A stretch of 30,279 nucleotides of DNA from a virus. The DNA is taken from positions 1 through 30,279 of the IMG/VR virus record IMGVR_UViG_3300027782_000265; one strand, given 5' to 3'. The notes beneath the pieces are model-generated. The model had not been told where the DNA came from, did not search any database, and worked only from the letters and a program-made list of their open reading frames with translations. Each line of letters begins with the position of its first letter. Position 1 is the first letter of the stretch. The position numbers were made by a program, and so were the translations under genes. Positions 10,034 through 29,872 of this stretch are shown piece after piece.

Positions 10034-13000
10034 TCATCCTATCCAAGAGAGATTAAAATAATCTCCTTGATTGTGTGAAACTGCGCTTGTGGAATTAATT
10101 CCACGATTACAATTTAATAATGTTACTCCAGAAATGGAAGTATATGAAATAGTTTCATTTCCAAACTCAATATATCCAGGTGAGGGGAATTTAGCCAGTG
10201 AAGTTACTCCACTAGCAACAATTGTTGTTCCTGAAGAAGTAATTCCACTTGCTAATGTTGCACCAAATGTTGCATAAGCATCTTGACCAATATTCATAAT
10301 ATTCGTTTCATTAGAACCTGTAGTTCTTCCTGGTCTTATGTTAAAATCATTAATTGTCAGATTTGGGAAATATCTGGAGAATAATTCAATACTCATACCT
10401 TGATAAAGGTATGGTGCTTGTTGACTATTCAAATCAGCATAAGGTTCAAATGGTTGATATGTAAATTTATTACTATCAAGATTTGCGAGAACATAAGAAA
10501 GTCCTGGCTGTGAGGGATCTTGATTAGATACACTTTCAATTTGAATTTTATTTTCAAATGAGGTTGTAATTTGAGTACTAATATAAGGAAGATCATATTG
10601 TTCATAACGATCTTGAAGTATATTCAACCCCAAAGAAACTGCAGCAGCATTACCATCATTCAATCTACTATCCACAATTATTTCTTTAGAAATTTTTACT
10701 GGATATTTTTGTTTTATAATTTTATATTTTTTTAAGAAAAGAACATCTGGTTGTGATGTGTATCCAGATCCAGGATTTGTAACAACAACATTTCGTACTT
10801 GTTTGTTTTCAATCACAGCATATGCTGCAGCACCAGTTCCTGGATTATTACAAGCAGTTTTAAAAATAACAATAGGAGGTATATTATAATCCATACCAAA
10901 ATTTACAACATCAACTCTTGAAACTCCATAGTCATAAAATGCTGGAATTGCTGTTGTTCCAGAAATAGAAACTGTTCCACTTAAAGTCACTGTATTTGCA
11001 TTTGTTATCGGAACACCAGAAGACATTACTGCTATTCCAACAGCATTTTTACCAAATATAAATGAATTATCTGTGTAAACTGAAGCATTGTATTCATAAT
11101 TATCGGAGTATTTAATTATAGAAGTATCAAAAGAAATTAATTCTTTTGGAGTTTCACCATCAATTTCAATTAAATCGCCAGGAGTAATTAAATCTTCATA
11201 TTCTGAATATTTGGCATAAGTTTCACATTCATTATTTGTAGATTTACCTAAATTAACAATTTTTTCAAATGGTCTACCATTCCAAATGGCAATAGTTTTT
11301 TCAAAAGTTTTGCCATAAAAATAAAGAATTTGACATTTTTTACTAGAAGTTGGTGGTTCTGTAAAAATTAATAAATTATCATTAATTGTATAAGATATTC
11401 TATTGTTTTGAGGAACACCATCTAAAAGTACTAAAATTTGATCAATATCTGGTGATTTAATATTTTCTTCTAGATATTTTAAATCAAAGATTTTATCACT
11501 AGCATTAAATTTTGATGAAATATCATTCAAAATTTTATATTTACTAAACGTGTATCCAAAGAATTGTCTTTCTTTTTCATATGCTGAATTGAAAACAATT
11601 TGATTTGGATTTGTTGTTCTATTAATAGAATAACTTTCTCCATAAATTTGCAAGACCCCATCAACAAAAATTAAAAGATTTTCATCTACTAAAGTAGAAA
11701 TATTTGTGCCATCAGATTTACGCAGATCAAATGTTGTTGTTGAACCATCAAAAATAATATTTTGTAATTTATATGAATATCTTTCATTATCAGTTCCATT
11801 CAAAAATTTAAAGAAAACTGAATAAAAAACGGATCCTTCTTTTGGCGGTTCAAATAATTTAATTGAAGTATTTGCATACTCAAATTCACCCTTAACTAAT
11901 TTTGCGTTTGTCAAATAAGAATTTGAAATTATTCCAGAAGGTACTGTAAAATTATTAAAAAGTATTTTAAATGTATTTGAATTGTCTACCGAATAAATTT
12001 CAAATTTATCATTCAAGTTGATATTATAACCAGAATAAGTTACACCTTCAATATGAACATATTGATCAACAGGATATGTTACTCCAGATTGAGTATATGC
12101 ATACCCGTGATTACCCGCCGTAGTGATTGTCGCAACATTATTCACATATGAAATTTGAGAAATATTTTTTCGCTCAATTGGTTCCTGAAAAATTTCATTA
12201 ATGCAAAGAATTATAGATGAATTTTTTGTATCTGTCGGGAAATTGCCGTCAGTAGACGACAAATTAAATTGAGTAGTTGATGAATTAAATGAATTGGAAA
12301 TATCATCCATTTTTACTGCATCAATTTGATTTTCTAAGAAATTGAGAGCAGCAGCACCTTCTCCGTCAATAGTAGATAGGTTTCTAGTATTGATTGTTTG
12401 TATTTCATATTTTTTATAATTAATAGTAGATTCTACATTAATTTCAGGTGCAGCAATTATTACAACGTGATTACTATGATTTCTTGGCAAGAAAACACTA
12501 GAATCTGTTACTCCAGAAGTTACGAAATTTCCAGATCCTTCAATTGCAACTTCCCCAAAAAGTTTAAATCCTAATGGATGAACTGTTCTATCAACTTTTG
12601 ATTTATAATCTTTTAAAGATCTTGTACTTCTAATAACATATGAAAAATCCTGATAATAATAACTATCAGTTATTTTTTGTGATGAAGAACTCAACTTACC
12701 CAGATCACTATCAAAAAATCCAAATCGGTTAATATATCCAGAAATATTTCCATATACTTTAGCAGTCTTAACTTCATAAATTATTGAAGTTGTTTGTTTG
12801 ATTGAACCAGTAATTACATCACCAACAATTATTTTACCATCAATTAATTCAACTTCAAGTAAATAAGAATTAACTCCAATTTGCTGTGATGATACCGTTC
12901 TTAAGGTAGCACCACTAGAAGTATAAAGATATTCAAAATTTTTATAAACTTCGTCAGATAAATTTGAAATTATTAATTTATAATTAAACGATAACTCTTT

Positions 13001-20429: not shown

Positions 20430-23400
20430 TCAATAAGTATTTGCAATGTATAATGTAGCGGTATAATTACTATATCCAGGACAACTAATTACAACATTTA
20501 CACCACCTGCCAAATGTGGATTAGGTATAGCAATGGAGGCGTAGCCGTTGCCGCCAGTAAAAACTCCTGATGGTGAATTTCCGTAATATGAGTCAATTGA
20601 TCCACCACTAAAAGTAACAGAGTATGTGAAGCTAAGGGGAACTTCTTCAGCTGTTCTATTTACTCCAACCGCAAAATAATCATAATTAATACCATTTGAT
20701 TGAGTATAATTTCCTGTATAATTAATATAACCAGGCACTGTAGGTAGTGATTGTACCGTAACAGTTGCTTGTAATGTTAAAGAACCGCCAGGGCCAGAAG
20801 CACTCAATGTATAAGTAGTTGTGGATGTTGGAGAGACAGTGGTTGATCCACTAGTTGCAACAGAACCAACTCCTTGATCTATACTTACTGATGTTGCATT
20901 ACTTATACTCCAAGATAGAGTTGAAGAATTTCCACTATTGATTGAAGTCGGACTTGCTGTAAAACTACCAGTTGGAGCAGCAGGAGTTTGAGAGGTATCA
21001 TTAATTGTTATTACAGAAGTATTTGCTAGTAATGTTGTGAATGCAGATTCTTTATATAAGTTTACATAGAATGATTGTGTTCCAGATTCAGTCAAACTAT
21101 CAGCAGTTGCATTAATATTAAATGTTGCCGTATTATTGTTTATTGTTACTGAACTACTAGTTGGTGATAGATTAGTTGAAGTTGTAATAGTAGAAGATCC
21201 TGCTCTCCAATATAATATAGTACCATTAAGAACATTTGTTGTAGTTACAGTAATTGTAACTGAAGAACCTTCATTGACAGAAGAATTAGAAGGACTAATT
21301 GAATAGGTAGGTGTCCAAGAGAGAACTACCAAACCATTTTGACTACTCCCACCACGACCAGAAATATAATAAGGATCACTGCTATTAGGTGCAGCAGCTC
21401 CAGAAGAACTTCCTGTATTTCCATTATATGAAACTATATTAGTAATTGCTCCAGAAACAAGTCCAGCACCTCCACCTCCTCCGCCAGATTGACAATTAGT
21501 TCCCGTATCACCACCACCGCCACCACCACCGCCAAAGTATCCAGCACCGCCGCCGCCGCCACGATTGCCAACACCTTGCCCAGTTCCTCCAGAAGAACCT
21601 CCATCGGAAGTATTACTTCCATTATTCCAAGATACTCCTGCGCTTCCATTACTAGTATTGTTACTAATACCACCAGAGCCACCACCAGATTGTGTTCCAC
21701 CTTGTCCTCTATAAGAACTACTAGTATAACTTGTTCCAGTACCACCAGAAGCATTTCCTCCACCATATCCACCATTTCCTGCTTGTCCAGCCCCGCCGCC
21801 AGCGCCCGCAATACCAAAATCACTACCACGTTTTACATATGAAAACTGCCCACCTTGTCCAGCGCCATAGTCCGCCTGCCCGCCAGTTGATCCTTGTCCA
21901 GTCTGACCAACAAATATTGAAATAACTTCAGATGAAGAAACATTCATTTTACCTTCAACATATCCACCACTACCTCCACTATATGGACCCCCACAATTTT
22001 CTCCAGTACCATCACCACCAGCACCCCAAGCTTTAAAAATAATATTATTAACTCCTGCAGGAATAGTAAAAGATGAAATACCTACATCTGCAAATGCAAT
22101 ATAACTATTAGTATTTAAAGTAGCAGTGTTACTTGTAATAATATTTCCATAATTTGAAGTAACAACTAGACGATAATTAGTACCATTATTTCCAGAAGTA
22201 GCTGTGACTGAATAAGATGAACTGTTTGCGCCAGAAATATTATTCCAAACACCAGAAGTAAAAGATTGCCATTGATAACTTACCGTTACTGCTGGACTCC
22301 AAGCTACAGAATTTAAATCAACTGTTGGAATTGAAACAGTCGCTGAAAATGTTGCTGTAGCATTTAATAAAACAGTTGTGGAACTTGGTTGAGATGAAAA
22401 AGATATTACTGGCATTTCTAATACTATTCTTGAGTTGCTATTAGCACTTCCAGCTCCACCTCTATTAATATCAGAAGAATTTGTAAATGTTGAAGTTGAC
22501 CCATTAATAACACTGCCAGCAACAAATCCAGATCCTCCACCACCACCAGAAGAATCTCTGGTGCCATTTCCATAGTCATTACCGCCGCCACCTCCACCGC
22601 CTCCAAAGTATCCAGCACCGCCTCCACCGCCCCCAGAAGCATTTGCGCCACCACTACCTCCTATTGATCCTCTTCCTCCAGTTCCACCACTAAGAGCACT
22701 CCCACCTGAAGCACTAATATTATTAGTACTTGTAGAAGTCGTCCCCTGTCCGCTGCAACTTATAGAATGATACCTTACATAAACGGCAGAATTATCTGCA
22801 CTTGAGTACCAGTTTACTCTAAATCCAGTAGAAGATTTATCGCTAATCGTAGAGTAAAATCCACTAGGATAATATGTTCCACTAGCAGAATAATTTTGAT
22901 CTCCACTAGCATTACTAGCATTTATTGAATATGATGAATCATTATATGGAGTGGTAAATGTGTATGTATATCCATCACTGGGGTTAGATGTGGAACCTTG
23001 AGTGGGAGTAGCAGTCCAAGGTCCTTGAACATCAGTAGTAGTATTAACTCCAGATGATCTTATGTGATAAAACCCACCTTCTTTTTGAACAGTACCTGTT
23101 GTGTATACTGTTTCTAATGCATATCCGCCACTACCACCAGATCCAGATGTCCCACCACCACCTCCAGTAGATCCAATTTGAGAATCGGCAGAATTTTGTC
23201 CACTACCACCAGATGATCCGCCGCCGCCTCCCCCATAACGATTACATCCCTGTCCATTATTAGCCCCGCCGCCACCAGCGCCGCCAGCAATTAATAATGC
23301 GTTGCCCTGACTTACTGAAGTACCATTAAAAATTCCAGCATATCCACCACCAGGCCAACATCCATATGATCCATATCCAGTTCCACAAGCACCACCACCA

Positions 23401-27088: not shown

Positions 27089-27102
27089 GCAGCCTAGGCT
27101 GC
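27089..27102. repeat. Perfect palindrome containing a stop codon
   Basis: gcagcctaggctgc is a perfect 14-bp palindrome; the TAG stop of the 91-aa gene lies at its centre. A similar GCCTAGGC core encloses the stop of the 58-aa gene at 28614-28616. Confidence 0.85.
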
Positions 27103-27369
27103 CCCTCCCATTGAAAATGAAATCCTCTTGGCTTCTGGGTTGCAGTAGTAACGGTTTGAGGTATGCTGCCAACCCTCATAAGAGGTGCTGAGGTATGCGA
27201 TCTCTGCTGCTGATAGTCCGTCTATCCCTGCCGCTGCTAGTGAGTTAGCGGTGTTGGTGAGGTGCCCCCCCTGATGGGAGTTGAGTTGTGGGCGCTCCAG
27301 ATTTCTGCTCTGGGTGATCCATACGGTCTGGCGGGTGCTGAGATCGGTTGCCTGTGAATAGATTGCCAT
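27094..27369 (-). CDS. Island protein A, unknown (91 aa)
   Basis: Starts at the ATG directly after an A/C-rich island leader and ends at a TAG inside a palindrome. The protein opens MAIYSQATDLSTRQTVWITQ and has a helical AANSLAAAGIDGLSAAEIAYL centre (approximately residues 42-62) and an aromatic TSYEGWQHTSNRYYCNPEA segment (about 63-81). It is soluble with no signal peptide. GC-rich codons (GCC, CTG, GGC) set it apart from the structural genes. No family is recognised. The leader plus coherent composition support it as a gene. Confidence 0.7.
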   Translation of the reverse strand: MAIYSQATDLSTRQTVWITQSRNLERPQLNSHQGGHLTNTANSLAAAGIDGLSAAEIAYLSTSYEGWQHTSNRYYCNPEAKRISFSMGGAA

Positions 27370-27405
27370 TTGGTTTGGTTGTTTGTTTACTTGTTTAGTG
27401 TAGCA
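27370..27405 (-). promoter_or_regulatory. Island promoter/leader of gene A
   Basis: Minus strand: TGCTACACT (extended -10-like) followed by AAACAAGTAAACAAAC and AACCAAACCAA to the ATG. No Shine-Dalgarno sequence. The first part (CTAAACAAGTAAACAAAC) is shared with the leader of gene D. Confidence 0.6.
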
Positions 27406-27423
27406 CGGCAGGGGGGCAAACCC

Positions 27424-27594
27424 CTAGTTCCCGTTCAGGAAGTCTGCCATCGCCTCATCGTAGTCTGCCTTAGTCTCAAAGGTGCGACCGTAGATCGTCT
27501 TAGGGAACTGCTGATTAGGAGCAGGGGCGGTAGGCAGGTCCCGACCCTTGGCAAGGATCTGGAGCTCGTAAGGGTTGGAAGTGAAGCGGGTCAT
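27424..27594 (-). CDS. Island protein B, unknown (56 aa)
   Basis: ATG at 27592-27594, TAG at 27424-27426. The protein starts MTRFTSNPYELQILAKGRDL, continues PTAPAPNQQFPKTIYGRTFE and ends TKADYDEAMADFLNGN. The GRTFETKADYDEAMADF end looks like a short beta strand plus helix. GC-rich codon use. The stop is followed by a GGGG/CCCC hairpin and then gene A's leader. No family is recognised. Confidence 0.65.
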   Translation of the reverse strand: MTRFTSNPYELQILAKGRDLPTAPAPNQQFPKTIYGRTFETKADYDEAMADFLNGN

Positions 27595-27631
27595 TTGGTC
27601 TCGGTCGTTTGTTTGTGGTTTAATTCTAGGC
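27595..27631 (-). promoter_or_regulatory. Island promoter/leader of gene B
   Basis: Minus strand: TAGAATTAAACCACAAACAA followed by ACGACCGAGACCAA and ATG. The TAG of the -10-like box is also the stop codon of gene C (27626-27628), so the promoter begins inside the upstream gene's end. Confidence 0.6.
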
Positions 27632-27871
27632 GGTCAGGGTGCGGTGCGACTGCAAGCAGTGACAGTTCACCCACTGTCCTACGCTGCCCTGACGGTTGAC
27701 CAGCAGGCTGACCATATCACGACGGCGGCAGGTATGAGCACTGATCGAACCGCTGTGCCAGTGTATGATGGCGGTTCGGGTCAGGGGTGACAGGATCACA
27801 CGCTGGCAGGCAGTGCTAGGGCGTTGCACATTGACGAACACGGGCAGATGGTCTAGAGCGAAGTTGAGCAT
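27626..27871 (-). CDS. Island protein C, unknown (81 aa)
   Basis: The protein is basic and beta-rich in look: MLNFALDHLPVFVNVQRPST, then VILSPLTRTAIIHWHSGSIS, a THTCRRR-like basic patch (SAHTCRRRD, about 44-52) and MVSLLVNRQGSVGQWVNCHC. The His/Cys at the end (NCHCLQSH, about 69-76) together with HTC at about 46-48 could form a metal site. There is a 7-bp GAACCGC/GCGGTTC inverted repeat within the gene around a TGGCACAG copy (27753-27760). It starts after an island leader and ends within the leader of gene B. No family is recognised. Confidence 0.65.
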   Translation of the reverse strand: MLNFALDHLPVFVNVQRPSTACQRVILSPLTRTAIIHWHSGSISAHTCRRRDMVSLLVNRQGSVGQWVNCHCLQSHRTLTA

Positions 27872-27902
27872 TGGTCGTTTGGTTGATGGGTTAATTGTAG
27901 CA
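27872..27902 (-). promoter_or_regulatory. Island promoter/leader of gene C
   Basis: Minus strand: TGCTACAAT (a good extended -10 match) followed by TAACCCATCAACCAAACG and ACCA before ATG. It is G-poor without a Shine-Dalgarno sequence. A GGGGC/GCCCC hairpin (27909-27921) lies just upstream. Confidence 0.65.
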
Positions 27903-27908
27903 CAGATG

Positions 27909-27921
27909 GGGGCGGTGCCCC
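27909..27921 (-). terminator. Short GC hairpin after gene D
   Basis: ggggc-ggt-gcccc forms a 5-bp stem directly after the TAA of gene D and just before the extended -10 of gene C. It has no T run, so it is at best a weak terminator or an RNA-end protector. Confidence 0.45.
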
Positions 27922-28161
27922 TTAGAGTTCGTCCATCATCTCACAGATCGCCTCAGCGTCAATCTTGAGGTCGTTCCAGCGGCAACCGTCTGGGGTCTCT
28001 TTAGATCCACACTCCCAGAGCATCTCCAGCAGGGCAGCATAAGAACCCCCACACTGGCGGGCAGCAGCATAGAGACCTTCGTCGTTCTGAATCCAGAGGG
28101 CAACGTTCCAGGTCTCCCAATTTGCCCAGCCGTTGAATGGTCCGTTCATTGTGGCGATCAT
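27922..28161 (-). CDS. Island protein D, Trp-rich small protein of the DUF7249 kind (79 aa)
   Basis: The N-terminus contains NGWANWETWNVALWIQNDEG (residues 10-29), a signature I associate with a family of small phage and bacterial proteins (DUF7249, from memory; function unknown) found with ArdA-like and other accessory phage genes. The rest is helical: LYAAARQCGGSYAALLEMLW and a DAEAICEMMDEL tail. The first ATG is chosen because it directly follows the CAAACC-AA leader; a second Met is four codons on. GC-rich codons. This is the most recognisable of the GC-rich island proteins. Confidence 0.75.
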   Translation of the reverse strand: MIATMNGPFNGWANWETWNVALWIQNDEGLYAAARQCGGSYAALLEMLWECGSKETPDGCRWNDLKIDAEAICEMMDEL

Positions 28162-28193
28162 TTGGTTTGTTTGTTTACTTGTTTAGTCTAGAC
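28162..28193 (-). promoter_or_regulatory. Island promoter/leader of gene D
   Basis: Minus strand: GTCTAGACT (weak -10-like) followed by AAACAAGTAAACAAACAA and ACCAA before ATG. It shares its first half with gene A's leader and its second half with gene E's leader, as expected from recombination between leaders. Confidence 0.55.
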
Positions 28194-28200
28194 GGTCAGC

Positions 28201-28240
28201 GGCACCCTAGCGGGCAAACTGTGCCAGACTGCTAGGTGCC
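28201..28240 (-). repeat. Long hairpin at the end of gene E
   Basis: The arms ggcaccctagc (28201-28211) and gctaggtgcc (28231-28240) pair over 10 bp with one bulged base. The stop codon of gene E lies in one arm, and the loop holds a TGGCACAG copy (minus strand, 28219-28226). Without a T run it is not a classical terminator. Confidence 0.75.
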
Positions 28241-28368
28241 ACATGGGCAGGCGATCCACAGGATTTGTAGAACTCAACCATACGCTCTGCCTCGGGCAGG
28301 GTGGCGAACCACTGCGAGCGCCATTCGCATTGGTTGTAGGGGGTCTGGTAGCGGATCTCGATTTGCAT
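28207..28368 (-). CDS. Island protein E, unknown (53 aa)
   Basis: The open frame extends upstream to 28437, but the likely start is the ATG at 28366-28368 because the preceding residues would be the translated island leader (VELNHKQTNQ), identical in DNA to other leaders. The protein is MQIEIRYQTPYNQCEWRSQW followed by FATLPEAERMVEFYKSCGSP and AHVAPSSLAQFAR: a strand, a Trp-rich turn, and a helix. This WxxxWFATLPEAERMV layout resembles short phage proteins with strand-helix folds. No family is recognised. The TAG stop lies in a hairpin arm. Confidence 0.7.
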   Translation of the reverse strand: MQIEIRYQTPYNQCEWRSQWFATLPEAERMVEFYKSCGSPAHVAPSSLAQFAR

Positions 28369-28405
28369 TTGGTTTGTTTGTTTGTGGTTTAATTCTACAG
28401 GGTCA
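28369..28405 (-). promoter_or_regulatory. Island promoter/leader of gene E (type sequence)
   Basis: Minus strand: CTGACCC then TGTAGAATTAAACCACAAAC and AAACAAACCAA before ATG. The TGTAGAAT is an extended -10 of the TGnTAnAAT type; it ends 23 nt before the ATG, giving an A/C-only 5' UTR of about 16 nt. The TGA in CTGACCC is the stop of gene F. Confidence 0.7.
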
Positions 28406-28567
28406 GGGCATAACGCAGGATCCAGGGGTGACAGCATTCAGACTGTCACACTGCGCCGCTTGCCTTTGATTCAAAACCTTTACCATTTGATTGGTGCTGT
28501 CTACTGCTGACAGCGCCACGCCTAGGGTTACTGCTGAGATCAGCAAGTAGACAGCAATTCGGATCAT
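28403..28567 (-). CDS. Island protein F, small single-span membrane or secreted protein (54 aa)
   Basis: Begins MIRIAVYLLISAVTLGVALS, a hydrophobic stretch of about 18 residues after one Arg, so a signal anchor or signal peptide with the rest outside. The tail AVDSTNQMVKVLNQRQAAQC then DSLNAVTPGSCVMP has two Cys that could form a disulfide. The stop TGA lies within the promoter element of gene E. The gene is unusually rich in inverted repeats (28495-28556; and GTGACAG/CTGTCAC near 28425-28447). No family is recognised; a membrane-acting early phage protein is a possible role. Confidence 0.65.
   Translation of the reverse strand: MIRIAVYLLISAVTLGVALSAVDSTNQMVKVLNQRQAAQCDSLNAVTPGSCVMP
28495..28556. 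repeat. 11-bp perfect inverted repeat at the 5' end of gene F
   Basis: tgctgtctact (28495-28505) and agtagacagca (28546-28556) are perfect reverse complements separated by 40 bases, with a second small palindrome tgctga-ga-tcagca in between (28532-28545). The mRNA would fold into a strong structure starting about 10 bases after the ATG. Confidence 0.8.
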
Positions 28568-28606
28568 TTGGTTTCCCTTTGTTTGTGGTTTAATTCTACA
28601 GGGTCA
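28568..28606 (-). promoter_or_regulatory. Island promoter/leader of gene F
   Basis: Minus strand: CTGACCC and TGTAGAATTAAACCACAAAC, identical to the leaders of genes E and H, then AAAGGGAAACCAA before ATG. Here an AAAGGG gives a possible Shine-Dalgarno sequence, unlike gene E. Confidence 0.65.
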
Positions 28607-28613
28607 GCAGCGC

Positions 28614-28790
28614 CTAGGCGTCGCTGTCTGTGCCAGCTTGGCAACCGTCCTGCTCGGCATAGTATTGTGCCCGATCATATGCTTTCATCTCATCAACATA
28701 ATTTTGATCCATATCTTCCTCAATCCAACGGCGATGTAAGCCATAGGGTGATTTAGTTTGTGAGCGGTAGGAGCGAGACATTGAAGACAT
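28614..28790 (-). CDS. Island protein G, unknown (58 aa)
   Basis: ATG at 28788-28790, TAG at 28614-28616 inside a GCCTAGGC palindrome. The protein starts MSSMSRSYRSQTKSPYGLHR, a basic Ser-rich head, and continues with an acidic helix RWIEEDMDQNYVDEMKAYDR and AQYYAEQDGCQAGTDSDA. The gene has no TGTAGAAT box: it follows gene H directly (leader CAAACTACTAATCAAACAAA, which overlaps gene H's end) and is probably translated from gene H's transcript. Its last codons run into the 18-bp TGGCACAG element. No family is recognised. Confidence 0.65.
   Translation of the reverse strand: MSSMSRSYRSQTKSPYGLHRRWIEEDMDQNYVDEMKAYDRAQYYAEQDGCQAGTDSDA
28628..28645 (-). repeat. 18-bp palindromic element, copy 1
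   Basis: Minus strand GTTGCCAAGCTGGCACAG, with TGCCA/TGGCA arms around a 3-base spacer. It lies inside the 3' end of gene G. Related copies lie at 29026-29043, 29241-29258 and, inverted, at 29855-29872. Confidence 0.75.
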
Positions 28791-28799
28791 TTTGTTTGA

Positions 28800-28964
28800 T
28801 TAGTAGTTTGAAACAACAGAATGAATAGTTCCAGTTGAAGTGTAGATCAACTGTACGTCGCAGGAATATTCTTCAGAGAGTGAATAAGCAATATCAATTG
28901 CATTATCTGCATCGGTGGTTTCATTCTCCCAAGGGGCAGAGGAGCAGCGGACGGAAAGTTGCAT
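28800..28964 (-). CDS. Island protein H, unknown (54 aa)
   Basis: ATG at 28962-28964 directly after the longest CAAA leader, TAA at 28800-28802. The protein MQLSVRCSSAPWENETTDAD, NAIDIAYSLSEEYSCDVQLI and YTSTGTIHSVVSNY reads as strand-helix-strand-strand, a compact small fold. Its NAIDIAYSLSEEY helix is acidic. Gene G begins 10 bases after its stop, so the two form a small unit from one promoter. No family is recognised. Confidence 0.7.
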   Translation of the reverse strand: MQLSVRCSSAPWENETTDADNAIDIAYSLSEEYSCDVQLIYTSTGTIHSVVSNY

Positions 28965-29004
28965 TTGTTTGTTTGTTTGTTTGTGGTTTAATTCTACAGG
29001 GTCA
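28965..29004 (-). promoter_or_regulatory. Island promoter/leader of genes H and G
   Basis: Minus strand: CTGACCC, TGTAGAATTAAACCACAAAC, then AAACAAACAAACAA before ATG. It matches the type leader of gene E with one extra CAAA unit, so leader length varies by repeat number. Confidence 0.7.
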
Positions 29005-29006
29005 GA

Positions 29007-29022
29007 GGGGCAGCGATGCCCC
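29007..29022 (-). terminator. GC hairpin between genes I and H
   Basis: ggggca-gcga-tgcccc is a perfect 6-bp stem with a GNRA-like four-base loop on the plus strand (TCGC on the minus strand). It lies between the 18-bp element and the promoter of gene H. No T run follows, so termination would be weak. Confidence 0.55.
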
Positions 29023-29025
29023 CTG

Positions 29026-29043
29026 CTGTGCCACTATGGCAAC
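29026..29043 (-). repeat. 18-bp palindromic element, copy 2
   Basis: Minus strand GTTGCCATAGTGGCACAG. The TGCCA/TGGCA arms are conserved although the spacer differs from copy 1 (TAG instead of AGC), and that TAG is the stop codon of gene I. Confidence 0.75.
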
Positions 29044-29177
29044 TGGGATACCTCCAGATCAAATTGGGCATTTGATGCCTCAACCTGAGCGATGAACTCA
29101 GGGTCTGACGCGATGGCATCAATCCACTCATCAAAATCGAAGATCTCGCCTGGCATGTCTTGAATCTCATCCCACAT
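29034..29177 (-). CDS. Island protein I, small acidic protein (47 aa)
   Basis: ATG at 29175-29177, TAG at 29034-29036. The protein MWDEIQDMPGEIFDFDEWID, AIASDPEFIAQVEASNAQFD, LEVSQLP has about 13 Asp/Glu and no Lys or Arg, so it is extremely acidic and helical; a DNA-mimic or inhibitor role is conceivable but unproven. It has an AAAGG before the ATG in addition to the island promoter. The stop codon lies at the centre of the palindromic element. No family is recognised. Confidence 0.7.
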   Translation of the reverse strand: MWDEIQDMPGEIFDFDEWIDAIASDPEFIAQVEASNAQFDLEVSQLP

Positions 29178-29220
29178 TTGATTTACCTTTGTTTGGTATG
29201 CTCTAATTATACAGGGTCAG
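29178..29220 (-). promoter_or_regulatory. Island promoter/leader of gene I
   Basis: Minus strand: GCTGACCC then TGTATAAT, a perfect extended -10 box, followed by TAGAGCATACCAAACAAAGG and TAAATCAA before ATG. This copy supports reading the TGTAGAAT of the other leaders as a promoter -10 element. Confidence 0.75.
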
Positions 29221-29240
29221 CAGCGCCATTCAGGGTCAGA

Positions 29241-29258
29241 CTGTGCCAGCTCAGCAAC
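29241..29258 (-). repeat. 18-bp palindromic element, copy 3 (imperfect)
   Basis: Minus strand GTTGCTGAGCTGGCACAG, upstream of gene I's promoter. The left arm is altered, but the GTTGC start and TGGCACAG end are kept. It is not within a gene here. No other coding potential is seen between 29221 and 29270. Confidence 0.65.
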
Positions 29259-29271
29259 TGTCCATTAAACC

Positions 29272-29307
29272 AACAAAATGCCCCCTAGGGTCTGTAACCT
29301 AGAGGGC
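29272..29307 (-). terminator. Intrinsic terminator after the ArdA-like gene
   Basis: On the minus strand GCCCTCTAGG and CCTAGGGGGC pair over 10 positions (one G-U) around an 8-base loop and are followed by ATTTTG. This is the best terminator of the island and isolates the ArdA-like gene from gene I. Confidence 0.7.
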
Positions 29308-29328
29308 GGGAGGGGAGGGAAGGGTTAG

Positions 29329-29345
29329 CGGGGGGTTGCCCCCCC
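29329..29345 (-). terminator. GGGGGG/CCCCCC hairpin immediately after the ArdA-like gene
   Basis: gggggg-ttg-cccccc forms a 6-bp all-GC stem about 15 bases after the TAG. It has no T run; it may assist the terminator about 25 bases downstream or stabilise the mRNA end. Confidence 0.5.
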
Positions 29346-29360
29346 ATTAAATGTTAACTA

Positions 29361-29783
29361 CTACCAGTTGAGTTGGAATACATAACCATTGATATATTCA
29401 TAATCATATCCTAACGACTGCTGAAATGTGTCTGTCCAATCTATCACTAAAGCAGAGGGCACATCCATAATATCATTATAATAATTCTCTGCAAAATCTG
29501 CTTCTGATTGATACTGCCCCATGTAGATATCCTCTACTCTAGCAACATCGGAAATGTCATTCTCCTCTAGGAAAGCATCAACTACATCAAAACCAACTTT
29601 ATCACCTTGATCTACATAATCAACATAGTAATTAATAAAATCATCACTGTTGTATTCTTTCACAAACTCTAGGATATCATCCAGAGCATAGTTATCTTCT
29701 AACAACTCGGTGATATAATCTAATGCTTTCTGTGACAATTCAGCAGCGATCTCAACAGGAACAGCGGTCGTGGTGATAGTCAT
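29361..29783 (-). CDS. ArdA-like antirestriction protein (140 aa, acidic)
   Basis: ArdA proteins are DNA mimics that inhibit type I restriction enzymes. The C-terminal half carries an ArdA-like pattern: VEDIYMGQYQSEADFAENYY, then VIDWTDTFQQSLGYDYEYI and GYVFQLNW, comparable with the F..Y.G.Y.s..dFA, YiDw..fa.dl and Y....g.vF features of the family. The protein is strongly acidic throughout. The first half is a helical acidic region (LSQKALDYITELLEDNYALD, then LEFVKEYNSDDFINYY) rather than a full ArdA N-terminal domain, so it is shorter than typical ArdA (about 165 aa). The frame is open upstream, but the ATG at 29781-29783 directly follows the island leader and is preferred. An acidic phage protein of other function is the alternative. 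Confidence 0.65.
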   Translation of the reverse strand: MTITTTAVPVEIAAELSQKALDYITELLEDNYALDDILEFVKEYNSDDFINYYVDYVDQGDKVGFDVVDAFLEENDISDVARVEDIYMGQYQSEADFAENYYNDIMDVPSALVIDWTDTFQQSLGYDYEYINGYVFQLNW

Positions 29784-29820
29784 TTGGTTTGCTTTGTTTG
29801 GTTGACTTGTTAAGCATAAC
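29784..29820 (-). promoter_or_regulatory. Island promoter/leader of the ArdA-like gene
   Basis: Minus strand: GGTTATGCTTAACAAGTCAA then CCAAACAAAGCAAACCAA before ATG. TATGCT is a weak -10 candidate. The leader keeps the AACAAG and CAAACCAA blocks of the other island leaders. Confidence 0.5.
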
Positions 29821-29854
29821 CCCCGAGGGGGCAGAATGGTTGAAATGGTAGACA

Positions 29855-29872
29855 GTTGGACTAGTGGCACAG
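29855..29872 (+). repeat. 18-bp palindromic element, inverted copy
   Basis: Plus strand GTTGGACTAGTGGCACAG. It matches the minus-strand copies at 28628, 29026 and 29241 at the GTTG start and the TGGCACAG end, but lies in the opposite orientation. A GCGGC/GCTGC hairpin follows it. The surrounding 29821-29900 holds no gene I can support. Confidence 0.65.

Follow-up and report, generated by a model that had tools for sequence, protein, structure and literature searches.

A likely array of operator-bearing promoter cassettes associated with small-gene shuffling in a T4-like cyanophage

Gene array and genomic setting

The window analysed here is a 30,279-base IMG/VR fragment (record IMGVR_UViG_3300027782_000265), which carries on its minus strand, from 29783 to 27094, an array of ten small genes (47-140 codons) whose starts mostly follow copies of one promoter repeat. 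The array has a GC content of 44-56%, against 25-42% in the rest of the window (in 1-kb steps). At the curated cut-off Pfam recognised DUF7249 in one array gene and no family in the rest, PHROGs labelled one gene as anti-restriction (Pfam ArdA fell below the cut-off), and an Rfam search of the array returned no match. Baseplate wedge genes of the gp6 and gp25 families lie downstream on the same strand (phrog_219, E 1e-184; phrog_261, E 1e-47), and because of them the source virus is, on gene content, assigned to the T4-like cyanophages. The closest DNA matches of the window are Synechococcus phages, chiefly Kyanoviridae, and in cultured relatives the equivalent region is a variable run of small open reading frames (ORFs) upstream of gp25/gp6.

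A sequence-only reading of the window had placed nine starts (27369-29783, minus strand) behind a related promoter and leader, and rightly so: each has a -10 box and an A/C-rich leader in front of it. The 18-mer TAGAATTAAACCACAAAC is exact in four of the copies (27611, 28380, 28581 and 28979); it occurs nowhere else in the window, and its reversed control had no match there. Every minus-strand 18-mer present at least three times in the window is part of this repeat. A degenerate pattern of the repeat proved too strict and gave no matches in our searches, and a sigma-70 consensus scan gave no excess over shuffles, owing to the missing -35 of these promoters. The claim that a promoter stands before each small gene holds for nine starts and fails for the gene at 28790, which follows the preceding gene after a 9-nt gap and has no promoter of its own.

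A 24-bp dyad at a fixed distance from the -10 box

The repeat extends upstream, beyond what had been noticed, into a 24-bp dyad (TGTGNCANTT-N4-AANTGNCACA, hereafter the operator) placed 36-37 nt before the -10 box. In the related loci (~110, fetched by array genes) the 7-mer TGGCACA is strikingly common at 36-38 nt before a -10 box, where it occurs 152 times (against ~1-2 per other position, with a second peak at 42), and permuted 7-mers gave no peak in the same loci. Alignment of the TGGCACA sites reveals the second arm and so the dyad; one C of this left arm is 98% conserved though only the right arm had been used for selection. A -10 box lies 36 or 37 nt from 312 of the 1,091 operator matches in these loci (both strands counted for each dyad), compared with ~5 per other position.

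Using a profile built from 127 operators of other loci (held out were the window, two related contigs termed L015 and L016, and the phages S-PM2, Syn9 and S-SRM01), we recovered eight sites of at least 9 bits on both strands of the window. Seven of these sit 36-37 nt upstream of array -10 boxes, at the starts 29783, 29177, 28964, 28567, 28368, 28161 and 27594, and score 16.5-20.7 bits, whereas the 99.9th percentile over all positions is 2.6; the eighth is isolated (23169-23192). In four window cases the operator is contained in the coding sequence of the gene before it. An off-by-one control, in which the operator pattern was given a spacer of 10 bases and not 11, returned nothing specific. 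The start at 29783, previously taken as a weaker case, has an intact operator. The two remaining starts, 27871 (TGC-TACAAT) and 27369 (TGC-TACACT), have an extended -10 and no operator, and they are the only ones to which the earlier description of a conserved extended -10 applies: at most others TG abuts the hexamer (CTG-TAGAAT or CTG-TATAAT), hence forming no extended -10, or TG is absent. The feature common to the array promoters is the operator dyad, not the extended -10. Our literature search for the operator motif itself found none.

Among A/C-rich-leader promoters of the related loci, TGn or a -35 accompanies 7/122 operator-positive and 87/135 operator-negative promoters (Fisher p ~1e-24; independence between sites is incomplete, and some false -10 boxes among the promoters without operator make the comparison conservative). 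When the T4-type -35 was sought in the operator-positive promoters as at least 5/6 matches to the consensus TTGACA (not T4's GTTTACA), only 3/122 had it, and the one clean TTGACA-17-TATAAT promoter in the L016 array has no operator. Given how rarely a -35 or extended -10 accompanies the operator, it probably replaces these core elements as the site of an activator. That it is instead bound by a repressor, for example in an early shut-off by a phage protein, seems unlikely to us: dyad symmetry and the many sites would fit a repressor equally well, but the dyad keeps a single fixed distance that places it upstream of the polymerase core footprint, and the promoters that bear it are without -35 or extended -10, so that compensation is required.

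Distribution among phages and hosts

The motif is not confined to this window but precedes genes of many other phages, so that the observation which the sequence-only reading had named as refuting, a profile occurring a single time, was not made. The related loci hold up to 16 operator/-10 promoters each, and whole-genome scans with the held-out profile found 21 forward and 2 reverse sites in S-PM2 (16-bit cut; shuffles 0-2) and 7 forward and 0 reverse sites in Syn9 (shuffles 0-1 against the forward sites). In Syn9, operators at 44774, 49078, 127492 and 148742 have a -10 box after them. A pattern scan showed dyads also in P-SSM2 and S-RSM4, none in T4, and only control levels in the Microcystis phage LMM01. 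A strict bipartite pattern matched 25 times in 386 cyanobacterial genomes, against ~32 for its reversed control (a divergent host regulon would be missed), and the same pattern gave 8 matches per 1.0 Mb of related phage loci, with 0 for the control. As judged by these scans, the promoter type belongs to the phages and is not a common host one. The exact 18-mer is also matched in six contigs from which the cassettes are absent (L009-L014), the cassettes themselves being shared by L015 and L016 only.

Separately, the perfect dyad TGTGACASTT-N4-AASTGTCACA was found at 23 GTDB genome loci (L145-L167) where ~1 was expected, several of them in one Pyrinomonadaceae genome (SSF56); in those bacteria an unrelated regulator may use it as its operator. 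The perfect-dyad loci are mostly Acidobacteria and Nostocales replication-like coding sequence, so a host operator regulon was considered and none is proposed.

Shuffling of cassettes between relatives

Promoter-early stem-loop (PeSL) cassettes of T4-type phages, for which a shuffling model is reportedly due to Arbiol et al. 2010 and Comeau et al. 2014, had been suggested as the counterpart of this array, and in one respect the comparison is supported: the small genes of the array are shuffled as cassettes, with breakpoints in the promoter or leader, as PeSL predicts. The island is common to two contigs besides the window, and the gene orders are:
Window: ArdA-WDEIQ-SAPWEN-SRSYR-AYLL-IRYQT-GWANW-LNFAL-RFTSN-AIYSQ
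L015: ArdA-SAPWEN-KIRK-SRSYR-GQWVN-IRYQT-TKVYS-GWANW-RFTSN-LTPE-AIYSQ
L016: ArdA-WDEIQ-AYLL-SAPWEN-GWANW-KIRK-GQWVN-SRSYR-IRYQT-LTPE-ITTNF-RFTSN-TATFT-TNLPI

Between the window and L015 seven shared genes keep their order while adjacency is lost (GWANW-RFTSN being interrupted in the window only), and between the window and L016 one adjacency is in common. At 17 junction pairs in which the upstream gene alone is shared, mean identity is.74 upstream,.75 in the spacer,.85 in the box and.72 in the leader, and drops to.60 in the coding sequence (coding background.60); at 17 pairs in which only the downstream gene is shared, it is.57 upstream (background.58),.79 in the leader and.76 in the coding sequence. 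In these 34 informative pairs from three genomes the identity switch thus falls in the promoter/leader, a pattern that recombination between promoter repeats would leave. One junction of L015 (ArdA>SAPWEN), for instance, resembles the upstream part of the window's first promoter fused to the window's second leader.

It could be argued that the repeats are the mere trace of a recent tandem duplication of one promoter, with no role in shuffling. The identical 18-mer in four copies fits such an origin, which we nonetheless regard as improbable, given that the array genes assignable to known families all differ, that the promoter type recurs in divergent phages, and that relatives carry hybrid junctions whose upstream part comes from one neighbour and whose gene comes from another.

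The SRSYR gene (28614-28790), promoterless in the window, is preceded by its own promoter in both L015 and L016; a cassette can therefore lose its promoter and turn into an operon member.

The dyad as DNA and the spacer hairpins

The ~30-nt spacers between operator and -10 box frequently, though not universally, contain hairpins (60/149 fold better than shuffles, z < -1.5); those of the window are mostly without a T-run, and in some relatives hairpin and T-run occur together in the spacer. S-PM2 has such a hairpin at 11369-11391, between an operator (11347-11370) and a TATAAT (11400), a stem-loop that had been noted while PeSLs were being weighed (PMC4503421). These foldings would suit an explanation in which dyad and hairpin are RNA signals, serving the upstream gene as terminator or processing site, and stand before a -10 box by chance, with no activation. 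The reading of the dyad as an RNA stem was rejected: its arms show no compensatory change or covariation, with pairing at or below the shuffled expectation and one pair below it (the seven right-arm positions fixed by selection are uninformative). Since, moreover, the dyad lies within coding sequence in the four window cases, keeps its 36-37 spacing to the -10 box with or without a hairpin, and is nearly exclusive with core promoter elements, we hold the RNA-signal explanation to be very unlikely.

Leaders and translation

The leaders had been described as mostly G-free and devoid of a Shine-Dalgarno (SD) motif, which is accurate for the SD in most window copies and inaccurate for the starts 28567 and 29177, whose leaders contain AAAGGGAAACC and AAAGGTAAATC; the orthologous leaders of relatives mostly have AAAGGAAACC. 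A special mode of translation is not needed and finds no support, because 59/121 leaders of the promoter family contain SD-like motifs where 22 would be expected, and the SD is lacking in most other genes of the window (11/13 non-array starts). A dedicated translation device (S1-dependent or relying on a phage RNA-binding protein) for which the leaders would be conserved, as the sequence-only reading had hinted from A/C-rich, mostly SD-less copies, is therefore highly improbable, the more so as AAAGGA occurs in the relatives' orthologous leaders and as leaders vary between phages while operator and -10 persist.

As to this variation, the leader dialect seems specific to phage groups (S-PM2, ACG-2014i/j, L036) and is repeated before several genes (e.g., AACTTCAGTTCAAACGAAACGACCC in S-PM2), with operator and -10 box constant. 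The second peak of operator spacing in the related loci (41-42) largely reflects a doubled box, TACATTACATT, followed by a leader like TTCGTTCCTGAGAGA, which is another such dialect.

A model of the array

Starting from what is observed (the anatomy of the composite promoter, its fixed spacing, the either/or relation with core elements, the recurrence in other phages and the breakpoints in promoter or leader), we consider it likely that the array consists of early-promoter cassettes that double as homology for shuffling in a T4-like cyanophage. The point where transcription begins, its early timing, the activator, termination at the hairpins and the direction in which recombination ran are inferred. 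Most cassettes open with a composite promoter, in which the 24-bp dyad (about -66 to -43) is followed by 29-30 nt of spacer, by a -10 box of the form TAnAnT that has no -35, and by an A/C-rich leader of 22-29 nt before a small gene; the spacer often contains either a hairpin, which may terminate the transcript of the gene before, or the 3' end of that gene. A dimeric activator, encoded by the phage or brought in with the virion, would bind the dyad and recruit host sigma-70 RNA polymerase, so substituting for a -35 or extended -10, and a minority of cassettes would use an extended -10 or -35 instead. The cassettes would be transcribed independently, probably early, in a hyperplastic region upstream of the baseplate genes. 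Because promoter and leader are nearly identical before unrelated genes, they would offer recombination homology between co-infecting phages or neighbouring cassettes, so that genes could be inserted, deleted or reordered with a working promoter kept.

The array is not driven by late promoters: the late box TATAAATA (a gp55-type -10) was not found in it, and ATAAATA stands 27-44 nt upstream of gp25 and of a 520-amino-acid gene. Doron et al. 2016 (ISME J) reportedly describe a novel regulatory element for early genes in Syn9 and P-TIM40, conserved in T4-like cyanophages. This element is probably the same as the 24-bp operator, which does occur in Syn9; links to a hairpin, to shuffling or to the either/or relation are not known to be part of that description.

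Several points speak against this model of early-promoter shuffling cassettes. Two of the nine window promoters are without operator; the counts in related loci are biased to this region, since array genes were used to retrieve those loci (for S-PM2 and Syn9 the scans covered the whole genomes); shuffling rests on three contigs, in which insertion and deletion are indistinguishable and junction pairs are not independent; the T-run is missing in most window hairpins, so that termination is uncertain; and early timing is suggested by small early-type genes, by the absence of late boxes in front of these and by the element that Doron et al. 2016 reportedly describe.

Relation to known systems

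PeSL-like shuffling cassettes are a known kind, and what would be new is the operator-dependent cyanophage form. The array resembles PeSLs in that a promoter, in some cases together with a hairpin that may act as a terminator, separates small genes open to exchange, that the setting is a hyperplastic region and that gene content changes at the elements themselves; it differs in having no T4-type -35, in the 24-bp dyad upstream of the hairpin at a fixed distance to the -10 box, in the A/C-rich leader and in its cyanophage hosts. PeSL-type exchange in the S-PM2 ORFanage had been rejected because the density was too low (PMC4503421), and in that same region (8.5-17.1 kb) we find five operator-type promoters.

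T4 middle promoters (MotA box and -10) are similar in having an activator site in place of the -35, although the MotA box lies at -30 and the array dyad at -66 to -43. Cyanomyoviruses lack motA, asiA, alt and modA, which in T4 control early and middle transcription (PMC2984593). Intergenic repeats of halovirus HF2 carry promoters (PMC8707807) and are alike as repeated intergenic elements acting as promoters, though of an archaeal virus and of archaeal promoter type.

We suggest, tentatively, a new class of phage promoter that is widespread among T4-like cyanophages: a phage-specific activator, dimeric on the 24-bp dyad, would replace the -35, and the composite of operator, nested hairpin, -10 box and leader would double as the recombination module by which cyanophage ORFan regions are built. 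How cyanophages set early and middle transcription without the T4 factors, and how ORFan regions gain genes, both become testable through the defined operator, exact geometry and either/or relation; the operator profile is moreover usable to predict early-type genes in uncultured cyanophages.

Features of the array and its downstream edge

Table 1. Array features in window coordinates (aa, amino acids; bits, score with the held-out position weight matrix; percentages, identity of the ortholog)
Feature	Position	Strand	Evidence or remark
Operator dyad TGTGCCACTA gtcc AACTGTCTAC, start 29783	29848..29871	-	17.2 bits, 36 nt to -10
-10 TATGCT, start 29783	29813..29818	-	
A/C-rich leader, start 29783	29784..29812	-	
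140-aa gene, PHROG 'anti-restriction protein' (ArdA-like)	29361..29783	-	phrog_36653 E 3e-23; Pfam ArdA 0.07, below cut-off
Operator dyad, start 29177	29242..29265	-	20.7 bits, 37 nt to -10
-10 TATAAT, start 29177	29206..29211	-	
Leader containing AAAGG, start 29177	29178..29205	-	
47-aa cassette gene, WDEIQ family	29034..29177	-	L016 ortholog 89% identical
Operator dyad, start 28964	29027..29050	-	18.6 bits, 37 nt to -10
GC-rich hairpin GGGGC-ATCGCT-GCCCC, operator/-10 interval of start 28964	29007..29022	-	read from sequence
-10 TAGAAT, start 28964	28991..28996	-	
G-free A/C-rich leader with CAAA repeats, start 28964	28965..28990	-	
54-aa cassette gene, SAPWEN family	28800..28964	-	L015 94%, L016 41%
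58-aa gene, SRSYR family, without own promoter in window	28614..28790	-	own promoter in L015 and L016
Operator dyad, start 28567, inside 28614-28790 coding sequence	28629..28652	-	16.5 bits, 37 nt to -10
-10 TAGAAT, start 28567	28593..28598	-	
Leader containing AAAGGG, start 28567	28568..28592	-	
54-aa cassette gene, AYLL family	28403..28567	-	L016 81%
Operator dyad, start 28368, inside 28403-28567 coding sequence	28427..28450	-	20.0 bits, 36 nt to -10
-10 TAGAAT, start 28368	28392..28397	-	
G-free A/C-rich leader, start 28368	28369..28391	-	
53-aa cassette gene, IRYQT family	28207..28368	-	L015 96%, L016 75%
Operator dyad, start 28161, inside 28207-28368 coding sequence	28220..28243	-	18.6 bits, 36 nt to -10
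-10 TAGACT, start 28161	28185..28190	-	
Leader, start 28161	28162..28184	-	
79-aa cassette gene, DUF7249 / phrog_871	27922..28161	-	PF23907 E 8.5e-19
Hairpin GGGGC-ACC-GCCCC	27909..27921	-	read from sequence
Extended -10 TGC-TACAAT, start 27871, without operator	27894..27902	-	best operator score -7.9
Leader, start 27871	27872..27893	-	
81-aa cassette gene, phrog_7365	27626..27871	-	E 8e-13
Operator dyad, start 27594, inside 27626-27871 coding sequence	27658..27681	-	16.6 bits, 36 nt to -10
-10 TAGAAT, start 27594	27623..27628	-	
Leader, start 27594	27595..27622	-	
56-aa cassette gene, RFTSN family, phrog_649	27424..27594	-	L015 95%, L016 93%
Hairpin AGGGG-TTTG-CCCC	27412..27425	-	read from sequence
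Extended -10 TGC-TACACT, start 27369, without operator	27397..27405	-	best operator score 2.3, spacing wrong
A/C-rich leader, start 27369	27370..27396	-	
91-aa cassette gene, AIYSQ family, end of array	27094..27369	-	L015 87%

At the downstream edge of the island (27025-26980, minus strand) lies a conserved intergenic element, GGGTCCCTCNAACCTACAAA, the window copy of which has one additional base. It had no match in Rfam and was not found in Syn9 or S-PM2. The element is also present in L015, L016 and 26 more viral contigs, nearly always with GC-richer sequence upstream and AT-richer sequence downstream, and in some contigs it is closely followed by a late-promoter-like box, GATAAATATT.

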